Positions 6,333-34,047 of a stretch of DNA of 51,138 nucleotides are shown in pieces (the stretch's first letter is position 1; the number at the start of each line of letters is the position of its first letter). This stretch comes from Bacteroidota bacterium (GTDB lineage Bacteria > Bacteroidota > Bacteroidia > JACCXN01), in the NCBI GenBank assembly GCA_013696965.1, contig JACCXN010000079.1:1-51138 (forward strand). The letters run 5' to 3'. The notes below the pieces were generated by a model. The model ran no database searches. It was not told the origin of the DNA and worked only from the letters and a program-made list of their open reading frames with translations. The position numbers were made by a program, and so were the translations under genes.

Positions 6333-7471
6333 GAATATCAATCCTACTAACCCTTTTGCTTTCATCCTTAACTATACAAGGACAAACATTTATAAAAAGC
6401 TTTACTTTTGATGGTGTTGTAAGAAGCTATAGAATTTTTATTCCTTCCAATTATGATCCCTTAAATGAATATCCTCTTGTTTTCAACCTGCACGGGAATG
6501 GTTCAAGTGCAAGCCAGCAGGAGCCCTATTCACAAATGAATTTGATTGCTGATACAGCAAATTTCATAGTTGTATATCCTGACGGAATAAGCAATACCTG
6601 GAACAGTGGATTTAATGTTCCTTATAACTCTGGTACGAATGATGTAGGTTTTATTTCAGCACTTATCGATACGGTTTCTGCAAATTACACTATCAATTCT
6701 CAAAGAGTTTATTCCTGTGGAATGTCTATGGGTGGTTTTATGAGTTACCGTTTGGCTTGCGAATTAAATGGAAGAATAGCAGCAATAGCCTCAGTTACAG
6801 GTTTAATGTCGGTACAGCTTCCTCAAAATTGCCAGCAACAAAAAGAGGTTCCTGTGCTTCAAATACATGGCACTGACGATGCAACCGTATTATACAATGG
6901 AACATCCTGGCACACATCTGTTAATGCCACGGTAGATTTTTGGATTCAAAAAAACAATTGTCCAACAACAGCTATAGTTACCAACATGCCAGATATAGTG
7001 AATGAAGGTTCAACTGTTGTAAAATATTATTATGGTCCCTGTACTAACAACAGTGAGGTTGTATTATTTAAAGTTGAAGGCGGTGGTCATACATGGCCAG
7101 GTGACATTGCTGTTCCCTCACTTGGTAATACTAATCAGGATATTAAAGCAAGCATTGAAATCTGGAAATTCTTTAGCAGACATGAATTAGCTTTACCAAC
7201 TTCGGTTATCCATACTAAATTAAGCAAGGGTAATAGTATAATTATTGCTCCAAACCCCGTAAATGATAAACTAAACTTAAGTTTTTCAGAAACTGAACAG
7301 GAGAAAATAATTTCTGTTTTTAATTCTAAAGCTGTGCTTGTTCACACTCAAACTGTTGCTCCATCAATTAGTTCCACGGCTATTGATCTTACAACATTCC
7401 CAACAGGTTTATATCTTGTTGTTATTAATAATGGTGAATCAAAGGAGGTTGTTAAAGTGGTAAAGAAGTAA
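6329..7471 (+). CDS. secreted polyhydroxybutyrate-depolymerase/feruloyl-esterase-like hydrolase with T9SS sorting domain
   Basis: An alpha/beta-hydrolase of the LpqC/PHB depolymerase esterase type. The signal peptide is residues 1-18 (ends IQGQ). The oxyanion-side motif is NLHGNG at 53-58. The nucleophile is S133 in CGMSMGG, the acid is D183 or D184 in HGTDD, and the catalytic histidine is H254 in GGGHTWPG. HTWPG is common in acetyl- and feruloyl-esterase members. A type A T9SS sorting domain occupies about 304-380 (begins IIIAPNP, ends EVVKVVKK), so the enzyme should be secreted or attached to the surface. Its ATG overlaps the previous TGA by 4 nt, implying translational coupling. The natural ester substrate cannot be read from sequence. 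Convergent with the OmpA-family gene; the 146 nt between them hold no clear terminator. Confidence 0.9.
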   Translation: MRISILLTLLLSSLTIQGQTFIKSFTFDGVVRSYRIFIPSNYDPLNEYPLVFNLHGNGSSASQQEPYSQMNLIADTANFIVVYPDGISNTWNSGFNVPYNSGTNDVGFISALIDTVSANYTINSQRVYSCGMSMGGFMSYRLACELNGRIAAIASVTGLMSVQLPQNCQQQKEVPVLQIHGTDDATVLYNGTSWHTSVNATVDFWIQKNNCPTTAIVTNMPDIVNEGSTVVKYYYGPCTNNSEVVLFKVEGGGHTWPGDIAVPSLGNTNQDIKASIEIWKFFSRHELALPTSVIHTKLSKGNSIIIAPNPVNDKLNLSFSETEQEKIISVFNSKAVLVHTQTVAPSISSTAIDLTTFPTGLYLVVINNGESKEVVKVVKK

Positions 7472-7617
7472 TTTCAAAAATATTTTTGTTATTAATAACC
7501 CAAAGGAAAGTGTTTTTTATCTTACTTTTAATAGAAAACAATACATAGTTATTTCGAATAATTTAATACCAATTGAAAATAAAAAAGAAGATATATTTTA
7601 AAAAAGTAAAATAGCTT

Positions 7618-9732
7618 TTAGTTCCCAACAACAATAAATTCAGCCCTTCTGTTTAATTGATGTTCTTCAGGAGTGCATTCAACTCCATCGGCACATTTAT
7701 TAACCAAATTAGCTTCCCCCTTGCCTTCAATTGCTTGAATTCGTTTGGCGCTTATACCCTTCAAAATTAAATATTGAGCTGCTTCATTGGCCCTTTTTTT
7801 GGATAAACGAATATTGTAATCAAGCGATCCTTTAGAATCTGCATATGCAATTATTTTGATTTTCACATCAGGATTGGCTTTGAGAATGGCAATGTTTTTA
7901 TCTAATGCATTTTTGGAGTCTACCTTTACCTGGCCTTTATCGAAATCGTAATAAACATTTTCGAAAACAAATTCACCAACAATCGCCCCTACTTTATTAT
8001 CATCATTGGAGGCCTCTTTTGAATTATTCTTTGGATTATTGACTGCCAATAATGGTTCCTTCACTTTTTCCACTACATGTATAAACTTGCTTATACAATA
8101 ATTATCAGTGGTTAGTTTTATTTTATGAAATGCCTGAAGTTCCATTTTTATCTCGTAAACTCCTGTATTTTCAAAGGTATGAGTTGTTTTTACTTCCTTT
8201 GCAGTGCTCCCGTCTGCGAATAACCAAAAAACATCGTTCCCTATTTCTGAATCCTTTACCCTGCTTTGGGAAGCATCAAAAAACACTTGGTCTCCCTTAA
8301 GTATGGTATCAGGCATAGTGAAATTTATAAATTTAACCGAATTCGGAGAATCATTTTGGACTTGTGTAATAACATTACAATCCTTGAATTCAGGTTCAGT
8401 TAAATAAGTAATACGGTAAATATCCATATCACCAAGGCCATCAGGTCTTGAGGATGAAAAATAAGCCTGATTGCCTACTTTAACCGGATTGTAAAAAATA
8501 TCATCAGCCATTGAATTAACAGGTCTTCCAAGATTAACCGGTTTGGTCCAGCTTCCATTTATATTGTGGGTATAAAAGATATCGTATCCTCCAATTGTAT
8601 TATGTCCCTTTGAAGAAAAATACAAAGTTTTACCATCTTCAGAAATAAATGGACTATCCTCATTGTATTTAGTATTTATTTCAGCTCCAATATTCTTTGC
8701 GATTCCCCAGGTTCCATCTTCCTGGAGAGTGGATGAATATAAATCAAGTCCACCCAGCCCACCTTTTCGTTCACTTGAAAAAAACATTGTTTTTCCATCT
8801 GAACTAATGCAGGCATGAGGTTGGTAACCCTTATTGGAATTGATATTTTCATTCAATTTTTCGGGTCCTTGCCAAATGCCCTCTTTTGTAAGATGAGATA
8901 CCCAAAGACTATTGTCGCGAAAAGTAAACAGTTTTTGCTCGTCAGAAGAAAAGCCAACAACAGCATCATGCTTTGGAGAATTAGGAATTAATCCCACATA
9001 TTTATCTGAAACAAGGAACTTTTGAGCAGGAGAAAAACCATTTTCCTCTTTTCGTGATAAATACATATCCTCAAAAAACTTGTCATCCCTGTAATCAATC
9101 TTTCCACCCAAATTGCTGCTCCTTCTGGAGGTAAACATCAATATGTGTTCTTCATTATTTATAACTGGTGCATAATCCGGGAATTTTGAATTAATATTGC
9201 TTCCCATATTTTCAACTTTCACCTTTTTATCCACAGCTACAGCAAATGCTTTTCCTCCAAAACACTGTGCAATGCGGAAGTTTAGTTCAGAAAACAATTC
9301 CTTTCCGGGTTTATTGTTTTTTACAAACTGCTTCATAATAGTATAATTTTCAATAGCTTTTTCAAGCTCGCCCTTATGCTGGTACAAATCACCCAAATAA
9401 TAAAAAAGCTCCCCAATTGTGTCTTTAGGAGAATTTTTTACTGCTTTTTCAAAATAAGGAAGAGCTTCTTCCTTTCTGTGGAATGTATAATAGTAATTTA
9501 AACCAAGTTCATAATTATAATTGAAATTATCAGGATTTCTTTCAACCAGCTTAATTAATTTTGCTCTCGAAAGTTCAGGTTCACCTGCATTTGCATGCTT
9601 TTTTGATTGACGGAAAAGTTTATTATTTGAATGCTCCTTTTGATTTAGTGTATCCTGAGCATTTAGTATTTCCGGAGTGCAAAGCAAGATTAAAGCACTT
9701 AATGTGGCAATTATATATCGATCAAATAACAT
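7618..9732 (-). CDS. TPR / PD40 beta-propeller / PKD-like / OmpA-family outer-membrane protein
   Basis: An envelope protein of 704 residues. It has a signal sequence (ends EILNAQ), then TPR-like helices to about residue 150. About six PD40/WD40-like blades follow (SSERKGGLGGLDLYSS, SSKGHNTIGGYDIFYT and SSSRPDGLGDMDIYRI are three). A PKD-like segment comes around 475-555 and a C-terminal OmpA domain binds peptidoglycan (YYDFDKGQVKVDS, then ADSKGSLDYNIRLSKKRA). In the family such proteins tether outer-membrane complexes to the cell wall, including T9SS and gliding components. The open frame extends to 9786, but that first codon is TTG; the ATG at 9732 gives a compact signal peptide and is preferred. 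It follows the M3 peptidase gene by 80 nt on the same strand. The partner complex is unknown. Confidence 0.86.
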   Translation of the reverse strand: MLFDRYIIATLSALILLCTPEILNAQDTLNQKEHSNNKLFRQSKKHANAGEPELSRAKLIKLVERNPDNFNYNYELGLNYYYTFHRKEEALPYFEKAVKNSPKDTIGELFYYLGDLYQHKGELEKAIENYTIMKQFVKNNKPGKELFSELNFRIAQCFGGKAFAVAVDKKVKVENMGSNINSKFPDYAPVINNEEHILMFTSRRSSNLGGKIDYRDDKFFEDMYLSRKEENGFSPAQKFLVSDKYVGLIPNSPKHDAVVGFSSDEQKLFTFRDNSLWVSHLTKEGIWQGPEKLNENINSNKGYQPHACISSDGKTMFFSSERKGGLGGLDLYSSTLQEDGTWGIAKNIGAEINTKYNEDSPFISEDGKTLYFSSKGHNTIGGYDIFYTHNINGSWTKPVNLGRPVNSMADDIFYNPVKVGNQAYFSSSRPDGLGDMDIYRITYLTEPEFKDCNVITQVQNDSPNSVKFINFTMPDTILKGDQVFFDASQSRVKDSEIGNDVFWLFADGSTAKEVKTTHTFENTGVYEIKMELQAFHKIKLTTDNYCISKFIHVVEKVKEPLLAVNNPKNNSKEASNDDNKVGAIVGEFVFENVYYDFDKGQVKVDSKNALDKNIAILKANPDVKIKIIAYADSKGSLDYNIRLSKKRANEAAQYLILKGISAKRIQAIEGKGEANLVNKCADGVECTPEEHQLNRRAEFIVVGN

Positions 9733-9812
9733 TCTATTTACTATTTTAAGTTTTTGCAAAATACCATTATCATTGGACTTTAGCAATAAAAAGGATAAAA
9801 AAAAGGATAAAA

Positions 9813-11537
9813 TTACAATTCAGCCATTTCTTTTCTAACAAAATCCGCAAGTTCTTTAACATAGGAATCAGAAAAATCGAATTTAATACCTGCTGTTTCA
9901 TAAATTTCTCCAATGGGTCTTGTATAGCCAAGAGCAAGGGCTGAGGTATAATCTTTTATTGCTTGTTTGGGGTTGTTTTTAAAATTCCTCCAAACTGCAA
10001 TCGCCCCTAATTGAGCAAAGCCATATTCTATATAGTAAAAGGGTACTTCAAATAAATGAAGTTGTTTTTGCCAGATATTTGCTTTTACCTTTTCCATTCC
10101 ACTCCAGTCTACTATGCTACTGTTAAATCCACTGTAAATTTCAATCCATTTATCATTCCTTTCATTAACAGAATGATCCGGATTTTCATAAATCCAATGT
10201 TGAAATTTATCAATGGTGGCAATCCAGGGAAGTGTTCCCAATACTTTTTCTAACTGTTCCCTTTTTGCCCTTTTAAGTTCATCTTTATCTTTAAAAAACA
10301 CATCCCAATGATCCATGGTAATTAATTCCATACTCATTGATGCAAGTTCTGCTACTTCTGAGGGAACACTTTTAAAAGCGGTAAGCTCCAAATCACGTGA
10401 AAGAAAAGAATGAATTGCATGCCCACCTTCATGCACCATAGTAATCAAATCTCTGAATGAGCCAACTGCATTCATGTATATAAAAGGAACACCTATTTCA
10501 TAAAGAGGATAATTAAAACCACCAGGTGCTTTACCTTTTTTAGATTCAAGGTCAAGGTATCCCATTTGTTTCATGATTTCAAGCTTTTCTCCAAAAAAGA
10601 GACTTATCCGGTTAAAGCATTCTATGGTTTTTAGTATTAACTCTTCTTGATTTTCAAAAGGTTTCAAAGCAGGTTTTCCTGTAATATCAACCTCTGTATC
10701 CCAAGGTTTTAATTGATCCACTCCAAGTGCTTGCTTTCTTTGTATATCCAACTGATCTAAAACCGGAGTAATATGAGTTTTAATAGCATGGTGAAAATCA
10801 TAACAATCTTTTACCGAATAATCAAACCTGCCAAGTTCAGCAAACTTATAATCGCGGTAATTTTCAAAACCGGCATTCTTTGCTATTGTAGTTCGTATTT
10901 GAATAAGTTCAGAAAAAAGCTGGTTTAGCTTTTCCACATCCTGAGTTCTTCTGAAAGAAATCTTTTCAAAAACAATTTCTCTTATATTTCTATCAAGATC
11001 TTTAAGGTGTTTTGCCGCTTGTTGCAAGGTTATTTCCTTACCTTCTATCTCCACAGTCATTAATGCACTAATAGAACCATATTTTTGCTCTTCCGTGTTT
11101 AGTTGAGTGAATAATGGAATATTTTGTTCACGAAATATTTCTATTTCCTTTTTAATGGCCCTTAAATAAATGAAATATTTATCCTTTTCCAAATGACTTA
11201 CAAAAGATGACTCAATTAGTTTTTTATTGAATTTATCATCATAAGGGGACATTCTTGGTTGAATTTCAGTTATAAAAAAATTGAAATCATCGGCAAGTGC
11301 CTTATCTGTAGTATCAATATTCATTTTGATATACCTCCATGCAGCATCCTCCTCAATTACCGCTTCAAGCTCACTCCTATCCTTTAACCAAAATTCTATA
11401 TCTTCCAGGGAATTCAATTTCCTTGCTAATAAATCATCAAAGTAGGGTTGAATTGATTCCCATGAATTTATAATTAAATTCTCTGAAAGAAATGTCCTTC
11501 TTTTCTTAACAGGTAATGTTGTGGGTGAATTAGTCAT
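9813..11537 (-). CDS. M3 family oligoendopeptidase (PepF-like)
   Basis: Cytoplasmic zinc metallopeptidase that cleaves short peptides. The 574-residue protein has the zinc motif HEGGHAIH at 369-376 and the downstream glutamate ligand in SEVAEL, around residues 394-397. YYIEYGFAQLGA near the C-terminus and the long helical N-terminal half fit the oligoendopeptidase F branch of M3. There is no signal peptide. The open frame runs up to 11585, but that first codon is TTG and lies inside a 32-nt palindromic terminator of the preceding gene. The first ATG, at 11537, is therefore taken as the start. The gene is co-directional with DUF5606 upstream and the OmpA-family gene downstream, probably with its own promoter after the terminator. 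Confidence 0.92.
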   Translation of the reverse strand: MTNSPTTLPVKKRRTFLSENLIINSWESIQPYFDDLLARKLNSLEDIEFWLKDRSELEAVIEEDAAWRYIKMNIDTTDKALADDFNFFITEIQPRMSPYDDKFNKKLIESSFVSHLEKDKYFIYLRAIKKEIEIFREQNIPLFTQLNTEEQKYGSISALMTVEIEGKEITLQQAAKHLKDLDRNIREIVFEKISFRRTQDVEKLNQLFSELIQIRTTIAKNAGFENYRDYKFAELGRFDYSVKDCYDFHHAIKTHITPVLDQLDIQRKQALGVDQLKPWDTEVDITGKPALKPFENQEELILKTIECFNRISLFFGEKLEIMKQMGYLDLESKKGKAPGGFNYPLYEIGVPFIYMNAVGSFRDLITMVHEGGHAIHSFLSRDLELTAFKSVPSEVAELASMSMELITMDHWDVFFKDKDELKRAKREQLEKVLGTLPWIATIDKFQHWIYENPDHSVNERNDKWIEIYSGFNSSIVDWSGMEKVKANIWQKQLHLFEVPFYYIEYGFAQLGAIAVWRNFKNNPKQAIKDYTSALALGYTRPIGEIYETAGIKFDFSDSYVKELADFVRKEMAEL

Positions 11538-11561
11538 AAAAAAATTATTATTAGTAATTAA

Positions 11562-11593
11562 AAAGCTCTTTGAATTTAAATTCAAAGAGCTTT
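11562..11593 (-). terminator. palindromic terminator after the DUF5606 gene
   Basis: A perfect 32-nt palindrome (16-bp arms meeting at 11577/11578, arm AAAGCTCTTTGAATTT). As RNA it would fold with a small loop around AATT, with GC pairs midway and a T-rich 3' side. It lies 26 nt after the stop of the upstream minus-strand gene and just before the pepF-like start. A palindromic operator for the next gene is the alternative. Confidence 0.7.
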
Positions 11594-11619
11594 AATATAT
11601 GGTTATTACTTTATTATCA

Positions 11620-12186
11620 TTATGCCCCTGTTTTTCTAACAGTCTGTGTTTTACCAGTTTTAGCTTTTGATGTTTTTGGAGTAGGTTTTACTGTTTTCGC
11701 TGCACGTTTTGCAGTTGCTTCAGCTTTATCCTTGCTCTCTGCTTTCGTCTTTTTTGGTTTATCTGTATCTTCAGCTTCCTTTTCAGTTGATTTTTCTTCA
11801 ACAACAGGTTTAATAAGACCATCAGCCTGTAAAATATTATACCAGGAAATTACCTTTTTAATATCCGACACATAAACCCGGTCTTTATCATATTCTGGAA
11901 GTACTTTATCAAAATATTTTTTCAAGGCTTCAGCATCTGATTTGGAATCTATAGCAGCTCCGCCTTTTTCCTTTTCAAATATTTTTGTAAATACCTCAAT
12001 TAAAGGCACATCTTCATTTGTGGTGAAAATGCTAATGTCCTGCAAAGAACTTACCTTTTGAGATGCATGTACTTGTAATCTTTTTTTCTCTGTTAAAGAT
12101 TCTACTATTAATCCATTGTTCGCCTTAGAAATTATTTTAAATAATCCTCCTTGTCCTGAAACAGAAATATAATCGCTTAAATTCAT
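11620..12186 (-). CDS. DUF5606 domain protein with lysine/alanine-rich tail
   Basis: The 188-residue product matches my recollection of DUF5606, a family largely confined to Bacteroidota. Its N-terminus is MNLSDYISVSGQGGLFKII, followed by blocks such as DRVYVSDIKKVISWYNIL near residue 105. No function is established for the family. Residues from about 130 to the end are low complexity, dominated by K, A, T and E (for example AEATAKRAAKTVKP). This resembles a disordered, positively charged nucleic-acid-contacting tail, but that is only inference. No signal peptide or membrane segment is seen. The open frame extends to a GTG at 12210, yet a perfect -7 box sits exactly there, so the ATG at 12186 is preferred. 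It also matches the usual family start. Confidence 0.85.
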   Translation of the reverse strand: MNLSDYISVSGQGGLFKIISKANNGLIVESLTEKKRLQVHASQKVSSLQDISIFTTNEDVPLIEVFTKIFEKEKGGAAIDSKSDAEALKKYFDKVLPEYDKDRVYVSDIKKVISWYNILQADGLIKPVVEEKSTEKEAEDTDKPKKTKAESKDKAEATAKRAAKTVKPTPKTSKAKTGKTQTVRKTGA

Positions 12187-12209
12187 ATTGTTTTTAAAAT
12201 ATATTTTCA

Positions 12210-12217
12210 CAAAAATA
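12210..12217 (-). promoter_or_regulatory. -7 element of the DUF5606 gene
   Basis: The minus strand reads TATTTTTG, a perfect match to TAnnTTTG, ending 23 nt before the ATG. A TTTG at 12242-12245 lies 24 nt further upstream, slightly long for a -33 element. The box covers the alternative GTG start. Confidence 0.6.
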
Positions 12218-12249
12218 AAAAAAATAATCTTTGAATTGGTACAAACTTT

Positions 12250-15099
12250 TTATTTTATCACAGTTAACTTTCCTGATGAAGAAAATTCACCGCTTGTAAG
12301 CCTGTAAATATAGACTCCTGCATTAAGTATGCTTGTATCTGTAGTAATTCTGTTAAATCCTTGAGGAGAAGCCTCTTGAACTATTATTTCAATTATTTGT
12401 CCCATACTGTTATACAATATTAAATCTACAGGGGCAGGTGAAGGAAGATAAAATTCAAAAGTTACATCATTTTTAGTAGGATTGGGATAGCACTTACCAA
12501 ACCATACTTCATTTTCATCAATAGGTTTATGATTACGGTTGTGGGGAATTTCAGTATCATATTTATTTTGTGCAGCAAACGCACTGCTTTTCAAATCAAC
12601 TAAGTCGTCTCCTGCAATTAAGGCAAATGCAATGAAAGCTGTATCACCCGGAGAAAGGTAAAAAGGTCCTGTACTCATTACATCAATTATATCGTTTCCA
12701 AATTGATTTGCACCTGCTTCATTACGGCTTGTGCTAAGGGTAGCGAATTTTTTATTGTTTTCAAATCCACCTGTAATATCTACTCCTCCTGCTCCCCCGT
12801 TTATATTATCAATAGCATAATGAATTGGAGGAGCAGTTGAACTTAGCAATTTTATTCCTGCATACAATCCATTTGGCTCCAGGCTATAAGAATATCCCAT
12901 TTTATTATCTGAGTCATAATTGATTCTGTTCACACTATAGTCCATTATGTCCCAATCGGCAAATATTCCTGCATACAGGTTATTTATTGGCTTGTCGCCT
13001 TTGTTAACAATATCATATAGAATAATTATATATTTTCGGTGTTCAGGTGAATTCCAGGCATAAGCATTATGATTGATTGATACATTCAATGGCGTTAAAG
13101 AAGTATTGTCATTAAATTTTCCTTCCAGGTTAATATCAGCGACCATTAATGGACTATCAGTAACTCTTAATATTGATTTAAAATCCTGATTGGTTTTTCC
13201 TTGCTCTCCCCTAACACAACTTGAAACAGCACTTTCGGAATTACCTACCATTAATCCTCCTTCATACAACAATGTAGGATTGTTCTTATAAGTAAAACCA
13301 AGCCCATATTGTTGTCCTTGTTTATTGTAGCCGATCTTGCCAGAACTTGTAATTGTAGTGCCAATATCATTAATTTTAACATTAATAAAATCAACATTTA
13401 CCATTAATGTAAAGAAATAATCTGCTGTATAATTGCCGTCCTGTATGGTTACAGTAAATAAGGCTTCAGTATTTTCAGGAGCATCTTTTAATATAACAAC
13501 ACGAAAAGGATCTGCACTATTATTTACTGAATCAAGCGTAGGAATAGAGCCAAAATAGGTAGAAGAATTCAATACTTTAATGAAATTATCTTTGGCTTTT
13601 AAAGTTACGGATACATTGGAGGCAGGTGCAAGATAATTTTTAAAAAAACAGGAGATTGAAACTGTATCTCCGGCAATAAAATAATCATGCATGCTGCCTT
13701 TAAAAGTTTGATTGGTTAGTACAATTGAAGGGGTATTGGTTTCAGTGAGAGCGCGATAAATATTTATTCTGCCTCTGCCAAGTTTTGATTCCAGGGATTT
13801 TTCATTCAAACCATCTATTTTATCTGCGGTAACTTTTAATTGTTCAGCAATTTGCAATGCATTGTATGAAGGAAAATAAGACTTAACAAGTGCTGCAGCA
13901 CCTGCTGCATTGGGTGTAGCCATGGATGTTCCTGATAATCCACCATAAATATTATCCGGCATTGTTGAATAGATGCCTTCACCGGGGGCACAAACATCTA
14001 TGGAATATCCATAATTTGACCCTGTCCATTTTTTATCATTCGTATTGGTGGCACCTACGGATAAAGTGTTTGCATATGCAGCAGGGTAAAATTTTTCATC
14101 CTTGCTATTGTTTCCTGCTGCAGCCACTACAAGAGCTCCTTTATTAAAGGTGGCATAATTAATAATATCCTGGCCATACTGGCCTCCACCTACACTTCCC
14201 CATGAACAATTTATAATCTGGCAACCTTGGTTGGCTGCATAAACAATACCATCATAAGCATGAGTTAAAATACCATTCTGGTTTGACACCTTTACAGGCA
14301 AATACTTACAATTAAATCCAACACCAGCAATTCCTGTATTGTTGTTCGTACTGGCAGCTGCAATACCAGTAACATGCACTCCATGTGAACCAGAATTAAT
14401 TTGAGGATAATTATTAGTTTCTCCCAAATTCCATCCACGAAAATTATCAATATACCCGTCATTATCATCATCAATACCATTAATAGGGTCGTTGTAGTTG
14501 TATTTGATATTTCCTAAAAGATCAGGATGATTAAAATCAGTTCCTGTATCCAAAATTCCAATTACAACATTTGTATCCCCTTGAGTAATATCCCATGCCT
14601 GATAGGCCTTCATAATAGCTAATGCATATTGAGAAGAAACATTCGGGTCATTAGGGGAAAATAAAAGTTTGGGAATATATAATGGCTCGGCATAAACTAT
14701 TACCCCAGTTCTATATAATTTATTTATTGCCTTTTCTAAAGAAACTGATTGGGGAATTTCAATTTCATAAATAAGGGAAAGATCTACAATTTGGCCGTCT
14801 ATGTTTTTATTCAGCTTATTTGAAACAGGTTTTTCAGCGGGGAATTTTTTTTGAATACTTTTCACTCCTAATTGTTGAAATTCTTCATTCAAAGCAGGTA
14901 TCTCTATGGAGCTGCTTTTGGCCATAGATCTATACTGTGGCTTGATCTTAATAATTATTTTTTCTGGTTGATAATCTTCCTGGGAAACATTTTCAGGTAA
15001 TTTGAAATAGGAAAATACCTCCTTCTCAATTTTTTGCAGATTCTGGGTAAGTGCAAAGAGAGGAATTAGTACAAAAAATATAACAATTATCTTTTTCAA
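12250..15099 (-). CDS. secreted subtilisin-like serine protease (S8) with T9SS sorting domain
   Basis: A 949-residue exported protease. The signal peptide is residues 1-18 (ends FALTQ). An inhibitor-type propeptide lies at about 45-140 and ends with YAEPLY. The S8 catalytic domain has D184 (ILDTGTDFNHPDL), H239 (GSHGVHVTG), oxyanion N330 (AAAGNN) and S392 (GTSMATP). Beta-sandwich regions follow, then a type A T9SS sorting domain from about 870 (CYPNPTKNDVTFEF) to the end. DDDNDGYIDN at 210-219 looks like a calcium loop. The start is TTG: a TAA lies directly upstream in frame, and the TTG begins a well-formed signal peptide. AAAGGA, 8 nt before the TTG, may act as a Shine-Dalgarno sequence, which is unusual in this phylum. 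It is 11 nt after the previous subtilase gene, so the two are probably one transcript. Confidence 0.93.
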   Translation of the reverse strand: MKKIIVIFFVLIPLFALTQNLQKIEKEVFSYFKLPENVSQEDYQPEKIIIKIKPQYRSMAKSSSIEIPALNEEFQQLGVKSIQKKFPAEKPVSNKLNKNIDGQIVDLSLIYEIEIPQSVSLEKAINKLYRTGVIVYAEPLYIPKLLFSPNDPNVSSQYALAIMKAYQAWDITQGDTNVVIGILDTGTDFNHPDLLGNIKYNYNDPINGIDDDNDGYIDNFRGWNLGETNNYPQINSGSHGVHVTGIAAASTNNNTGIAGVGFNCKYLPVKVSNQNGILTHAYDGIVYAANQGCQIINCSWGSVGGGQYGQDIINYATFNKGALVVAAAGNNSKDEKFYPAAYANTLSVGATNTNDKKWTGSNYGYSIDVCAPGEGIYSTMPDNIYGGLSGTSMATPNAAGAAALVKSYFPSYNALQIAEQLKVTADKIDGLNEKSLESKLGRGRINIYRALTETNTPSIVLTNQTFKGSMHDYFIAGDTVSISCFFKNYLAPASNVSVTLKAKDNFIKVLNSSTYFGSIPTLDSVNNSADPFRVVILKDAPENTEALFTVTIQDGNYTADYFFTLMVNVDFINVKINDIGTTITSSGKIGYNKQGQQYGLGFTYKNNPTLLYEGGLMVGNSESAVSSCVRGEQGKTNQDFKSILRVTDSPLMVADINLEGKFNDNTSLTPLNVSINHNAYAWNSPEHRKYIIILYDIVNKGDKPINNLYAGIFADWDIMDYSVNRINYDSDNKMGYSYSLEPNGLYAGIKLLSSTAPPIHYAIDNINGGAGGVDITGGFENNKKFATLSTSRNEAGANQFGNDIIDVMSTGPFYLSPGDTAFIAFALIAGDDLVDLKSSAFAAQNKYDTEIPHNRNHKPIDENEVWFGKCYPNPTKNDVTFEFYLPSPAPVDLILYNSMGQIIEIIVQEASPQGFNRITTDTSILNAGVYIYRLTSGEFSSSGKLTVIK

Positions 15100-26881: not shown

Positions 26882-26916
26882 TACTTTATTTGTTCCTTTT
26901 ATTAAAACTGATTTTT

Positions 26917-27540
26917 ATGAAAAATCCATTTTTAATTGTTTTTATATTATTTACTATAAGCATTTTCGGCTGTAAAACACCAAAAGAAAAACAAACCATT
27001 CCTGAAAATAAAGTAAATCAATCAACAGAAAATAAATTACCTGGTTCAAAAGACAATAACCCAGTTTCGACTAAAGAAAATTCTTTAAATTCATCTGGTA
27101 TTGAACAGTCTTCTAATGTGGAAAAACTTAAAAACATGGACTTTGTTTCCGCCAAAGGAAATGACACTATTTTCGCTACCATGGAAAAAACACCTTGTTA
27201 TGGAACTTGTCCTGTTTACAAATTAATGATTTTCAAATCAGGTCTTGCAATTTACCAAGGCATTAGAAATGTTGACAAAACTGGAAGATTCCTGGTTTAT
27301 TTTTCACTGGAGGAAATGAAGGAAATTGAAAATAAGGCAAATGAAATTAATTATTTTAAGCTAAAGGATGAATATGATTCTCCTGTTACAGATTTCCCTA
27401 CTACCATTACATCCCTAAGAATTAATGGAAAAGTGAAAGTAGTTTCAAATCGTGTTGGAGGCCCTCCTGAATTGAAGGGTTTTGAAAAACATATAGATGA
27501 AACTTTAATGCGAAAAGAATTTAAAGAACTTGACAAGTAA
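26917..27540 (+). CDS. DUF6438 domain lipoprotein, copy 1
   Basis: A 207-residue lipoprotein. The signal peptide leads to a lipobox ending at the cysteine in SIFGCKTPKE. A hydrophilic N/K/S/E-rich linker of about 50 residues follows. The folded domain, from about residue 77, carries TPCYGTCPVYKLMIFKSG and TDFPTTITSLRINGK, which I recognise as DUF6438. The two close cysteines in CYGTC are conserved and could form a disulfide or bind a metal. The family has no known function. The open frame reaches a TTG at 26890, but the ATG at 26917 directly precedes a normal lipoprotein signal. It is the first member of a tandem pair downstream of yidC and shares a nearly identical 41-nt block with copy 2. 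Confidence 0.83.
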   Translation: MKNPFLIVFILFTISIFGCKTPKEKQTIPENKVNQSTENKLPGSKDNNPVSTKENSLNSSGIEQSSNVEKLKNMDFVSAKGNDTIFATMEKTPCYGTCPVYKLMIFKSGLAIYQGIRNVDKTGRFLVYFSLEEMKEIENKANEINYFKLKDEYDSPVTDFPTTITSLRINGKVKVVSNRVGGPPELKGFEKHIDETLMRKEFKELDK

Positions 27541-27795
27541 AACCAACAGTAGGGTGCAGATAGTAAAGAATCATAAATTTACTTTTCTTTTCATAATAGT
27601 TTCACTATTTTTTTCATCCTGTAGCTTTCAAAAGAAAGCAGTTCCTGATAGCTCATCTTCGAATATTGATTTTAAAAAATTCGAAACAAAAAAAATTGTT
27701 TCTGCAAAGGATGATCAATTTATCTTCTCAACTATTGAAAGAACCCCCTGCAAAGGAACTTGTCCTGTTTACAAATTAATTATTTTCAAATCAGG
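27202..27795 (+). repeat. 41-nt near-identical block shared by the two DUF6438 genes
   Basis: Positions 27202-27242 and 27755-27795 agree at 40 of 41 nt (the block starts GGAACTTGTCCTGTTTAC). They encode the GTCPVYKL(M/I)IFKSG segment of each gene. The single difference turns Met into Ile. The rest of the two genes is much more diverged at the nucleotide level. Confidence 0.9.
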
Positions 27796-28087
27796 AGATG
27801 CCATTTATGATGGAAGTGATCATGTAATTCACACCGGACGGTTTTTAGTAAAGTTTTCAAAAGTCGACTTGGAGAAAATTTCAGCAAAAGCGAAAGAAGT
27901 TAAATATTTCTCATTCAAAAATGAATACCCAACAAAATCAGGAGATTTCCCTGCAACAATAACATCCTTAAGAGTTAATAAAAAAGTTAAAAGCACAAAT
28001 AATCGGGCAGGTTCCATAAAAGGCCTTAGCGATTTTGAAAATTTTATTGAACAAATGCTTTTTACCAAAAAATTCATTCCACTTTAA
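27554..28087 (+). CDS. DUF6438 domain lipoprotein, copy 2
   Basis: A 177-residue paralogue of the preceding gene. The signal peptide leads to a lipobox ending at the cysteine in FFSSCSFQKK. The linker is only about 20 residues, then the DUF6438 domain follows with TPCKGTCPVYKLIIFKSG and GDFPATITSLRVNKK. The GTC cysteine pair is retained. The reading frame has no suitable ATG before the signal sequence. Either the TTG at 27530, which overlaps the end of copy 1, or the GTG at 27554 must start it. I chose GTG because it gives a normal signal length, with AGG just before it, though the TTG cannot be excluded. Function is unknown; the pair probably arose by local duplication and is likely cotranscribed. 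Confidence 0.78.
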   Translation: MQIVKNHKFTFLFIIVSLFFSSCSFQKKAVPDSSSSNIDFKKFETKKIVSAKDDQFIFSTIERTPCKGTCPVYKLIIFKSGDAIYDGSDHVIHTGRFLVKFSKVDLEKISAKAKEVKYFSFKNEYPTKSGDFPATITSLRVNKKVKSTNNRAGSIKGLSDFENFIEQMLFTKKFIPL

Positions 28088-28401: not shown

Positions 28402-31400
28402 ATGAAAAAGAGTAAATGGTGGTGTAATAGTTTATTTAGTTTCATTTTGTTTTTGTCGTTGTTTACTGTTGGATTTAAAGCTTATTCACAGTCCGGACTT
28501 TGTGACCCTATCACCCCGTTTTTTAATGTAAACTTATCTGGAAATCCTTCCGGGACTTTTATATCCTCCCCTGCAGTCCCGAGGGCTGGTCTTTGTTGCA
28601 CAAATTCAACACCTGACCGTTGTATTGAATTTTCAATTTTACTCGATCCTCAGGCTGTTGCAATTAATTTTTCAATTGTCTCGGGTGCTGTACCTCCTGG
28701 AGCAATGTATTATCAAATTGCTTGTGGTCCTCCAACCCCAGTTGGTCAACCCATATGCATTAGTGGCCCTGGACCTCATACGCTTACTTTTTGTAAGCCG
28801 GGAAACAATCAAAACACTTATGCAATTACATCAATCGCTGGTCCTGTTTGGGGCAATGATATTGTTATTGGGGATGGCTGCAATAAATCCCTTCATATAT
28901 CTGGTATGGTTGAATCAACTATTACCTGGAATGACATTACAGGTGGTGGTATATACAATAGCTATTTAAATTGTACTTCTGGCTGTGATTCAACTTTGGT
29001 AACCCCCCAAGCTGGTTATCCTGCTTTTGTGGATTATGTAGTATGTGGAATACCTAACGCCCAACCTTGTACCCCTAATATTCCTGTTTGTGATACTGTT
29101 AGGGTTAATTTTGTTCCTCCTTTATTTGCTTCCATTTCTCCAAATCCAGCTGCTTTTTGTGAAAATGAACCAGGAATACTTCTTACTGCTTCTGTCTCTG
29201 GTGGTGACCTTTCCTACAATTTTTTATGGACAAATTCTTCGGGAAATATTCTGGATAGTGGTTCAACCTATTTTGCAACAACACCTGGAACTTATTTTAT
29301 TGAAATTCATGATGGGACTTATCCTGGCTGTCCTTCAATAATGGAAAGTGTAACTGTTACTATGAATTTAATACCTGTTGTAATTGCAAATGACAACTTA
29401 ATCTGTGGTAATAGTGCAGCATTTTTCAATGGAAGTATCTCCAATGGAATACCTGGAGTTTGGACTGGAGGAAATGGGAATTATAGTCCTGGCGCCAATT
29501 CGATAAATGGATTTTATTATCCCTCTGCTGCTGAACTTGCAGCAGGTTTTGTAAACCTTACACTTACTTCTCAAGGTCTGGGAGGCTGTCCTGAAGTAAG
29601 TGATATTGCTCAAATAACATTTTTACCAGGTATTTTCACTGATATTATTGCACCTTCTGTATTATGTACCGGTAATACCGAAACCCTTTATGCCAATGTT
29701 TCAGGAGGTACATCGCCATTTACTTTTTCATGGAATACAGGCGAAACTTCCCAAAGTATTTCAGTAACAACAGGTGGAACATATTCTGTTACCGTGGCTG
29801 ATTCTTATGGATGTGTGCAAACAGTTTCAGTTACTGTTCCTGAAAATCCTCCTTTAATAGCATCAGCATCTCCAAGCAGTACAATTGCTTGTAATTCTGC
29901 TATTTCAGTGAATGCATCCGGAATCGGAGGAACTGGTATTTATTCCTATTTGTGGAATACAGGAGATGTTTCACAAAACATAAACGTTTATACTGGTACC
30001 TACATTGTAACAATTACGGATGATGCAGGATGCATGGATAAGGATACTGTTTCAGTTATTGCCACAAATAGTGTTTTAGATGTAACTGTTAGTGGGAATC
30101 AACTTGTTTGTTTTGGAGATCAAACTACTCTAATATCTGCTACAACAGGTGCTTTTGGAACACTAATTTACAATTGGAATAACGGCAGTACTACTTCAGG
30201 AATTACTGTTAATGGAGGAAATCATTGCTTAACAGTCACTGATGATGCAGGATGTGTTAACACAGATTGTTTTGAAGTAGTGGAAAATCCTGAACTAAAT
30301 GCAAATATTCCATTATCAGATATAATATGTTTTGGGGCATCCAAAATAATTAATGTAAATGTTTTTGGAGGTACACCTGCTTTTAATTTTTTATGGAGCA
30401 ATGGTTCTACAAACTCAACAACTAGTGTTCCTTCAGGAACTTATTCAGTTATTGTAACGGATGGAGTGGGCTGTCAACAATTCGATACTACAATTGTTAT
30501 AGAATCCCCGCTTTTATCAGCCCAAACAAGTGTTTTGAATACTATTAGTTGCTTTAATTGGAATGATGGTTCTGCAACTGTTTTACCCCAAGGGGGATCT
30601 GCACCCTATAATTACACCTGGTCACCCTATGGTGGTGTTGCAGCTACAGCAAATAACATGAATGCTGGAACTTATACCATTACCGTTTCTGATCAGGGTG
30701 GTTGCATTATTACTCCTAGTGTTACAATAACTGAGCCTCAGCCCTTGATAACCACAATTTCATCCGCCCTACAACCTAGTTGTTTTGGTTCATCAAATGG
30801 AGAGGCTACAGTCCAAACAACCGGAGGAACACCTTCATACACATACTCCTGGACCCCTACAAATACAACAGGATCTACAGCAACAGGTGTTTCCGCTGGT
30901 ACTTATGCCGTTACGGCACAAGACAATAATGGTTGTACTGCCACAGCTGGAATTACACTTACGGAACCAACAGAAATTACGTTTTCGGATATTACAGTTC
31001 AAAATGTTACTTGTTTTTTAGGAAGCAATGGATCAGCTTCTGCTCTTGCTTCTGGCGGCACTCCTGGTTATTCATATTCCTGGTCAAATGGTGCAACTGA
31101 TACCTTTATTTCAGGTTTAACCGCTGGTTTTTATAATGTTACAGCTACTGACCTTAATGGTTGCACTGCTACTTTACCCGTTTATGTCAATCAACCTGGT
31201 GAACTTTGGGTTGATAGTATTTCTTTAATTAATGTTTTATGTAATGGTGCAAACACTGGTCAAGCCGCAGTTTGGGCTTCTGGAGGAACAACCCCCTATT
31301 CATATTCATGGACTTCAACAGCATCAACAAGTTCTATTTCAACCGGGCTTTTTGCTGGCACCTATTCTGTTACTGTTACAGATATTAATGGATGTTTTAC

Positions 31401-34047
31401 AACAGAAGTTTTTACAATTACAGAACCCTTAGATATTCTTGGGTATACAATTGACCCTACTCATGTTAGTTGCTTTGAAGGTATAAATGGTGAAGCAACA
31501 CTAAATCCTACAGGTGGAGCTGGGGGATATGAAATTCTATGGTCGAACAATGAAACTACTTTTTCAATCTCAGGACTTTCAGCTGGAGTTTTTACCTTTC
31601 AGTTGAGTGATGCCAATGGATGTATTGTAAACGGAAGTGTTGAAATTTTAGAACCTACACAATTAATTACAACCACATCAACAACAAATGTTTTATGTGC
31701 TAATGATAATACAGGTACTGTTCTTATTGATGTAAATGGCGGTACCATCCCCTATTCTTTTAACTGGATAAATGCTCCTTATTCTACTAATAACCCAAAT
31801 GATTTAGCAGCAGGAAATTACGAAGTAATATTAAGCGATATAAATGGATGCCAAGATACTGTCATTTTTACAATAAATGAACCGCTCCCATTACTTGTAG
31901 ATGTAATAAATGTGGTTAATGTTTTATGTTCAGGAAATTCTGACGGATTAATAGAAATAGAAGCAACAGGAGGAACCCAGCCCTATTCTTATGCATGGAC
32001 AGGATCAATTTCATCCAATCCTCTTGTAACAGGATTAGCAGGAGGACAATACGCTTATATAGTTTCTGATAATAACGGATGTGAAATTACTGGGAATGTT
32101 GCAATTACAGAACCAGCTTTTGCCTTAGCATTCACCATCAACACTACAAATACAAATTGTTTTGGAGAAGAAACCGGTGAAATATCAGTTAATCCTTCAG
32201 GAGGAAATGGTGGTTATGAAGTTCTATGGTCAAATAATGAAACCACCTTTACAATTTCAGCATTAACAGCTGGAGTTTATTCTTTTCAATTAAGTGATTT
32301 AAATGGATGTATCCTAAACGGAAGTGATGAAGTTAATGAGCCTTCAGCCATAAATACTACCATTACTGCAACAAATGTTTTATGTGCTAATGACAATAAC
32401 GGATCAATTATCTTAACAGTAAATGGAGGTACTCCAAATTATAATTATAACTGGATTAACAGTACGAATACAACCAATAATGCAAGTAACCTTTCCGGAG
32501 GAAGTTATGACGTAATAGTAATTGATCAAAATGGTTGCAAAGATTCCCTCACAATTTTAATTGTTGAACCAACTCCCTTAAATATAAATATAATAGAGGT
32601 TAAAAATGTTTCATGCAATGGAAATTCTGACGGATTAATTAATATAGAAGCGATAAATGGCACTGCTCCATATAATTATTCCTGGACACCAAATGGATCT
32701 TCTACTTCGCTAATTACAGGACTACAACCTGGACAATATAATTATCTAATAACAGATAATTCCGGATGTACTCTTTCTGGAGGTTTTCCTATAACAGAAC
32801 CCACTCCAATAACTGTATCTATACCACCAGTGGGTCCAATATGTAAAGGAGATGCTGTAACCCTTGAAGGATTTGCCAATGGAGGTAACGGGGGTTATAC
32901 TTTTAATTGGGATCAGGGACTAGGACAAGGAAATCCTCATTTTGTTTCACTTCAAAATACAACAACCTACAACCTTATAGTTACTGATGGCATGGGATGT
33001 TCTAGCGTTTTAAAAAGTATTACAATTGAGGTTTTTGAAAATCCTATAATCACTTTTATTTCACCATCCTTAATTTGTGCAGGAGACAATGCTACAATAA
33101 GCGCTAATGTCAGTTCTGGAGGAGGAAGTTATATTTATACTTGGAATGATCCCACATTCTCTGGACCCGGGCCATTTACTGTTTTTCCTGATTCTACTGT
33201 TTCTTATTATTTAAATGTTGTTGATGCTTGTGGTATTCAAGTTAATGATTCTTTAAAGATTACTGTTTATCCTTATCCTATGGTTACATTCTCACCTTTA
33301 TATGCTGAGGGTTGTGCTCCACTTACTGTTCAATTTGAAGAAAGTGCTGTTACGGAATCTGGTTCTAGTTATTATTGGAGTTTTGGTAACAATACTTTTT
33401 CTTCAGCTCAAAAGCCTATCTATACTTATACCTCTTCAGGACAATATACTGTGTCATTAACTGTAATTTCTCCCAATGGTTGCATTAGTTTATCATCCCC
33501 AAATGGACTTGTAAATGTTTATCCCGGGCCTAATGCAGATTTCACCATAAATCCTGATGCTATTGGCCTTATTAATCCAGAAATTAATATTACCAATAAT
33601 TCCATAGGAGCAACCGCCTGGAATTGGGATTTTGACGATGGACAATTTTCAGATGAACAAAATCCAAAACATTCCTATGCTGATACAGGATCGTATACAG
33701 TTAATTTGATTGTTTCCAACAATTATGGCTGTACAGATCAAGTAAGCAAAAAAATGAAAGTTATTCCTGAATTTTCATTCTTTATTCCAAACGCATTTAC
33801 ACCAGATGGTGATAATCTTAATGATAGTTTTACTGGTATCGGTATTGGAATTGCAGATTTTGAAATGCATATCTATGACAGATGGGGTGAAAATATTTTT
33901 AGTTCATTTGATTATGAAATTCCTTGGGATGGAACAAGGTCTGGTAAAAATCTTGTTCAAATTGATGTTTATATTTACGTTATTAAAGTAAAAGATTTAT
34001 TTGGAATTTGGCATGATTACACTGGCCATGTTACTGTCGTAAGATAA
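28402..34047 (+). CDS. giant SprB-repeat surface adhesin with PKD domains and type B T9SS (gliding) C-terminal domain
   Basis: A secreted, 1881-residue surface protein. The signal peptide ends near KAYSQS (residue 31). A cysteine-rich N-terminal part covers about 32-240. Then come Ig-like and degenerate repeats, and from residue 704 to 1467 ten regular SprB repeats of 75-77 residues. Each has the pattern NVxCxGxxxG...GGTxPYxYxW...AGxYxVxVTDxNGCxxT...ITEP. Two further Ig-like units, two PKD domains (about 1620-1785; one contains WNWDFDDGQFSDEQNPKHSY) and a CHU_C/gliding type sorting domain (1791-1881, starting FSFFIPNAFTPDGDNLND) follow. SprB of Flavobacterium is the mobile adhesin used in gliding; this protein is far smaller than that one, so a general adhesin role is safer. 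No gliding genes are adjacent. Confidence 0.92.
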   Translation: MKKSKWWCNSLFSFILFLSLFTVGFKAYSQSGLCDPITPFFNVNLSGNPSGTFISSPAVPRAGLCCTNSTPDRCIEFSILLDPQAVAINFSIVSGAVPPGAMYYQIACGPPTPVGQPICISGPGPHTLTFCKPGNNQNTYAITSIAGPVWGNDIVIGDGCNKSLHISGMVESTITWNDITGGGIYNSYLNCTSGCDSTLVTPQAGYPAFVDYVVCGIPNAQPCTPNIPVCDTVRVNFVPPLFASISPNPAAFCENEPGILLTASVSGGDLSYNFLWTNSSGNILDSGSTYFATTPGTYFIEIHDGTYPGCPSIMESVTVTMNLIPVVIANDNLICGNSAAFFNGSISNGIPGVWTGGNGNYSPGANSINGFYYPSAAELAAGFVNLTLTSQGLGGCPEVSDIAQITFLPGIFTDIIAPSVLCTGNTETLYANVSGGTSPFTFSWNTGETSQSISVTTGGTYSVTVADSYGCVQTVSVTVPENPPLIASASPSSTIACNSAISVNASGIGGTGIYSYLWNTGDVSQNINVYTGTYIVTITDDAGCMDKDTVSVIATNSVLDVTVSGNQLVCFGDQTTLISATTGAFGTLIYNWNNGSTTSGITVNGGNHCLTVTDDAGCVNTDCFEVVENPELNANIPLSDIICFGASKIINVNVFGGTPAFNFLWSNGSTNSTTSVPSGTYSVIVTDGVGCQQFDTTIVIESPLLSAQTSVLNTISCFNWNDGSATVLPQGGSAPYNYTWSPYGGVAATANNMNAGTYTITVSDQGGCIITPSVTITEPQPLITTISSALQPSCFGSSNGEATVQTTGGTPSYTYSWTPTNTTGSTATGVSAGTYAVTAQDNNGCTATAGITLTEPTEITFSDITVQNVTCFLGSNGSASALASGGTPGYSYSWSNGATDTFISGLTAGFYNVTATDLNGCTATLPVYVNQPGELWVDSISLINVLCNGANTGQAAVWASGGTTPYSYSWTSTASTSSISTGLFAGTYSVTVTDINGCFTTEVFTITEPLDILGYTIDPTHVSCFEGINGEATLNPTGGAGGYEILWSNNETTFSISGLSAGVFTFQLSDANGCIVNGSVEILEPTQLITTTSTTNVLCANDNTGTVLIDVNGGTIPYSFNWINAPYSTNNPNDLAAGNYEVILSDINGCQDTVIFTINEPLPLLVDVINVVNVLCSGNSDGLIEIEATGGTQPYSYAWTGSISSNPLVTGLAGGQYAYIVSDNNGCEITGNVAITEPAFALAFTINTTNTNCFGEETGEISVNPSGGNGGYEVLWSNNETTFTISALTAGVYSFQLSDLNGCILNGSDEVNEPSAINTTITATNVLCANDNNGSIILTVNGGTPNYNYNWINSTNTTNNASNLSGGSYDVIVIDQNGCKDSLTILIVEPTPLNINIIEVKNVSCNGNSDGLINIEAINGTAPYNYSWTPNGSSTSLITGLQPGQYNYLITDNSGCTLSGGFPITEPTPITVSIPPVGPICKGDAVTLEGFANGGNGGYTFNWDQGLGQGNPHFVSLQNTTTYNLIVTDGMGCSSVLKSITIEVFENPIITFISPSLICAGDNATISANVSSGGGSYIYTWNDPTFSGPGPFTVFPDSTVSYYLNVVDACGIQVNDSLKITVYPYPMVTFSPLYAEGCAPLTVQFEESAVTESGSSYYWSFGNNTFSSAQKPIYTYTSSGQYTVSLTVISPNGCISLSSPNGLVNVYPGPNADFTINPDAIGLINPEINITNNSIGATAWNWDFDDGQFSDEQNPKHSYADTGSYTVNLIVSNNYGCTDQVSKKMKVIPEFSFFIPNAFTPDGDNLNDSFTGIGIGIADFEMHIYDRWGENIFSSFDYEIPWDGTRSGKNLVQIDVYIYVIKVKDLFGIWHDYTGHVTVVR
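30511..32802 (+). repeat. ten tandem SprB-repeat modules
   Basis: Ten in-frame modules (residues 704-1467) each end in a form of (I/V)xEP or NQP and carry a conserved cysteine near the start and an NGC or GGC near the end. The average length is about 76 codons. They are diverged at the nucleotide level, so this is a protein repeat rather than a DNA satellite. Confidence 0.88.
31429..32802 (+). repeat. higher-order duplication: two 687-nt blocks of three SprB modules
   Basis: Block 1 (31429-32115, residues 1010-1238) and block 2 (32116-32802, residues 1239-1467) are each exactly 229 codons. Modules pair in order. The first modules share LWSNNETTF(S/T)IS, (F/Y)xFQLSDxNGCI and GGYE(I/V). The second share TNVLCANDN and NWIN. 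The third share GNSDGLI(E/N)IEA. Modules in other positions do not match this closely. Confidence 0.85.

Follow-up and report, generated by a model that had tools for sequence, protein, structure and literature searches.

In Flavobacterium johnsoniae, SprB is a gliding adhesin and a T9SS type B substrate that is carried by SprF. It comprises 6497 aa (PMC9870892) and has a length of about 200 nm (PMC12635249). Long tandem arrays of Ig-like modules make up grappling hook protein A (GhpA; 5898 aa) of Aureispira sp. CCB-QB1 (PDB 9flw, 9flp, 9fly, and others). Domain repeats often expand by several domains at once, with the growth frequently located mid-array (Bjorklund and colleagues, PMC1553488); the seven-domain blocks of the eukaryotic muscle protein nebulin are a case in point (PMC1553488).

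The window analyzed here is a stretch of 51,138 nucleotides that constitutes contig C79 (JACCXN010000079.1) of the 3.86-Mb draft genome of a Bacteroidota bacterium (GCA_013696965.1; 106 contigs). It contains a gene for an SprB-repeat protein, the array of which was cut at conserved EP/QP junctions to yield ten modules (M1–M10). The features were placed as follows:

28402..34047, + strand: SprB-repeat, T9SS type B surface protein of 1881 aa (ORF, Pfam, TIGR04131)
28402..29400, + strand: N-terminal region of the SprB-repeat protein (sequence comparison)
30505..31428, + strand: modules M1–M4, the upstream SprB array
31429..32115, + strand: block copy 1 (M5, 31429-31656; M6, 31657-31884; M7, 31885-32115)
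32116..32802, + strand: block copy 2 (M8, 32116-32343; M9, 32344-32571; M10, 32572-32802)
33598..33750, + strand: PKD domain, best stretch (Pfam PF18911, PKD_4)
33784..34047, + strand: C-terminal T9SS sorting domain of type B (TIGR04131 and CHU_C), stop codon included

Pfam SprB (PF13573) matched the protein in 10 stretches with 317.7 bits (cut-off 28; E = 4.9e-97), i.e. above the gathering score, which places it in the SprB-repeat family. NCBIfam TIGR04131 matched residues 1795-1881 with 41.8 bits (cut-off 35), as expected of a T9SS type B cargo protein, and the Pfam CHU_C sorting domain was likewise matched at the C-terminus. The N-terminal region was 44–53% identical to the N-termini of other SprB-repeat proteins (C10 and C35 of the same genome, and the same-class relative G009). 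Directly upstream of the gene, two consecutive, slightly overlapping DUF6438 genes were observed on the + strand (26890-27540 and 27530-28087); this pair, from a family of unknown function, apparently arose by tandem gene duplication.

The same genome yielded 42 CHU_C matches, 15 PorP/SprF genes, GldL, and GldJ. Because of this gene content, a type IX secretion system is judged to be present in the host, and a gliding apparatus probably is as well. No PorP/SprF gene was found on contig C79, though there are 15 elsewhere in the genome; the carrier (SprF/PorP) for the window protein could therefore be encoded at another locus. The initial annotation had called the protein an “SprB-like adhesin”. 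This is reasonable as regards the repeat type and the secretion signal, but the contig is devoid of a PorP/SprF gene, so that a gliding role is no more than putative.

The two block copies (31429-32115 and 32116-32802) were each 687 nt, or 229 codons, long, exactly as had been annotated, and their gap-free alignment featured 55.5% amino-acid and 66.2% nucleotide identity. Partner modules were 61% (M5/M8), 50% (M6/M9), and 56% (M7/M10) identical at the amino-acid level, with respective nucleotide identities of 69%, 65%, and 64%. All non-partner pairs within M1–M10 had amino-acid identities of 28–47%. From M4 to M10, neighboring modules were only 28–38% identical, compared to 50–61% for partners three positions apart; thus, each module of the block was closer to its counterpart at a lag of three than to its neighbors, and this held over a run of three modules. 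The motifs LWSNNETTF(S/T)IS, TNVLCANDN, and GNSDGLI had been described as restricted to the first, second, and third partners, respectively. Among all ORFs examined, they were found solely there.

The pairing was also examined against a comparison set of 474 modules drawn from the host genome, its relatives, and named genomes. All of M5–M10 (6/6) were reciprocal best matches with their partners in this set. In a maximum-likelihood tree, M5/M8, M6/M9, and M7/M10 formed clades with support values of 100/99, 100/98, and 100/98; the alignment had few columns for so many rows, and the remaining forks of this tree were mostly weak. When the order of the modules was permuted, an equally strong block signal was obtained in 12 of 20,000 shuffles. 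The central claim of the initial annotation, that a three-module block had been copied in order, thus withstood the pairwise comparison on which it had been staked. A paralogue was considered as the source of the block and rejected: modules from C10, C42, and C35 of the same genome and from G009 were never closer than the partner within the gene. No closer copy of the block was found in 40 relatives, nor in the three genomes of the order that were compared.

The similarity of M4 to M7 was slightly raised (47% amino-acid and 56% nucleotide identity). Given this resemblance, the duplicated tract may have begun at a position other than exactly 31429, or earlier rounds of duplication may have occurred. 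A seven-module C-A-B-C-A-B-C reading, with M4 as an older C, was also entertained. The M4–M7 similarity is suggestive in this regard, but the reading was set aside, as M4 did not group with M7/M10 in the tree.

The exact equality of the block lengths had been offered as a further indication of duplication. It does not serve as such: block lengths are equal because module length is nearly constant, with HMM-phased module starts in this section of the array lying 76–77 aa apart. The last five consecutive three-module sums (from M3 on) were all 229 aa, out-of-phase sets included; any three neighboring modules in this section therefore have the same total length as the block. When all the arrays were considered, exact length matches were present in 58 of the 227 pairs of adjacent triplets. 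Equal length consequently adds little evidence, and it is the sequence identity that proves the duplication. It had been stated, moreover, that no indel was tolerated since the event. The copies do align without indels, but this does not denote a special constraint on the block, as the length of modules outside of it is near-fixed, too. More generally, recent copying cannot be read from equal block lengths where module length is fixed.

Divergence between the copies was estimated using the Nei-Gojobori method, which yielded a dS of ~0.9, a dN of ~0.35, and a dN/dS of ~0.4. As judged from these substitution estimates, the block copies are old and under purifying selection; the age follows from the dS value of ~0.9 (66% nucleotide identity). 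The same value rules out a recent, strain-specific duplication. It also leaves the proposal that block copying tunes the reach or binding of the adhesin in strain-specific ways without support, the event not being of strain-level age.

The AlphaFold2 model of the six-module block had a pLDDT of 92.9 and a pTM of 0.57, the latter rendering the relative orientation of the modules less certain, and displayed an all-beta pattern six times over. The block is thus predicted to consist of six tandem Ig-like beta-sandwiches. The best matches among solved structures were fragments of GhpA (Foldseek E = 9.9e-15). A structural alignment with GhpA (VIA) had a Z-score of 12.6 and an rmsd of 7.1 over 432 aligned residues, and a profile search also identified GhpA as the closest solved relative (E = 1.7e-31). 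In an alignment of 25 sequences, each of M5–M10 was observed to contain two invariant or near-invariant cysteines ca. 50 residues apart; an intramodule disulfide is possible at this pair.

Very probably, the array of this T9SS-secreted surface protein underwent a single, old tandem duplication of a three-module (687-nt) stretch. We infer that the stretch would have been doubled once when similar modules underwent unequal recombination or when replication slipped from one to another, and that a long divergence would have ensued, with purifying selection acting on the Ig-like fold. The array is likely a stalk or spacer that was lengthened once by recombination. The stalk would simply have become ~7 nm longer per block, a value scaled from F. 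johnsoniae SprB (229 x 200/6497).

Block copying was sought in other SprB arrays using a lag test with 300 shuffles per array. The sample comprised 26 arrays, each of six or more modules, and was biased, having been picked by similarity to the block; within it, the block signal was reached by 0 of 300 shuffles for L058 (k = 7), L059 (k = 3), L074 (k = 2), L075 (k = 4), L076 (k = 5), and the window protein (k = 3). In L059, from an uncultured Tenacibaculum (CANLMR010000004.1, ~7100-12600), a three-module unit of 720 nt recurred with 97% nucleotide identity in two separate stretches, and this expansion is, by its sequence, much more recent than that in the window. Recent and possibly strain-variable block copying is accordingly better studied in the SprB arrays of other species, such as this one.

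A homologue in G009 (L070, ORF at 6394) was compared to the window protein. Its N-terminal modules 1–3 and their counterparts in the window protein (HMM-phased, from ~29623) paired in the same order, with strong tree support for the third pair only, and the central modules were unpaired. The pattern suggests that the ends of the array are conserved while the middle turns over. No synteny between the homologue and the window was seen within the 14 kb compared. SprB-like modules were also observed in very long open frames of same-class relatives (11,129 aa on contig C34 of G028; 5,569 aa on contig C69 of G009).

That L059 independently features a three-module unit speaks for another explanation, in which the block is a functional super-repeat comparable to those of titin and nebulin. 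Its three module types would be kept distinct by selection, e.g. to provide a superhelical pitch or one ligand site per block. The persistence of type-specific motifs in partners at a dS of ~0.9 and a dN/dS of ~0.4 agrees with this explanation, as does the dissimilarity of neighbors from M4 to M10 (28–38%) next to lag-3 partners at 50–61%. However, there are only two copies, the units of 2, 4, 5, and 7 modules in other arrays argue against a fixed super-unit, and purifying selection at the level of the fold, together with common ancestry, accounts for the retained motifs. We therefore regard a super-repeat as improbable. Slightly less probable still is a block that acts as a selected functional super-unit of a filament (e.g. 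with one binding module each), with arrays growing and shrinking by whole blocks.

The pairs could also stem from three independent events, each a duplication of one module or a gene conversion, and the somewhat variable pair identities (61/50/56%) would fit such a history. Yet all three pairs have the same spacing, the same order, and similar dS values (0.86 for M5/M8, 1.05 for M6/M9, and 0.81 for M7/M10), and three events are needed where one is enough; this origin is very unlikely. An assembly artefact, conceivable in a draft of 106 contigs of which the window is one, is dismissed, as 66% DNA identity is far too low for a misassembly duplicate or collapse.

A single block duplication is in keeping with what is known of repeat proteins. 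Multi-domain copying has been known in them since 2006, and the window block is a further, older example; block copying is the usual growth mode of such proteins, and the present case is ordinary. It does document, in one bacterial family (SprB arrays), a kind of repeat expansion that is chiefly familiar from eukaryotes.

Like F. johnsoniae SprB, the window protein features SprB repeats (PF13573) and a sorting domain of the type B class, and its host genome resembles the F. johnsoniae system in harboring GldL, GldJ, and many PorP/SprF genes. Unlike SprB (6497 aa), it has only 1881 aa and is not accompanied by a PorP/SprF gene on the same contig. With GhpA it shares the predicted fold of long tandem Ig-like modules, but the identity over aligned modules was 14–20%; there was no sign of hook assembly in the window protein, a single 1881-aa ORF in which the hook, neck, and base architecture of GhpA (~5900 aa) was not found. 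As in nebulin, several domains were duplicated together in the middle of the array. In contrast to that eukaryotic muscle protein, the array is bacterial, and it contains two copies of a three-module block.
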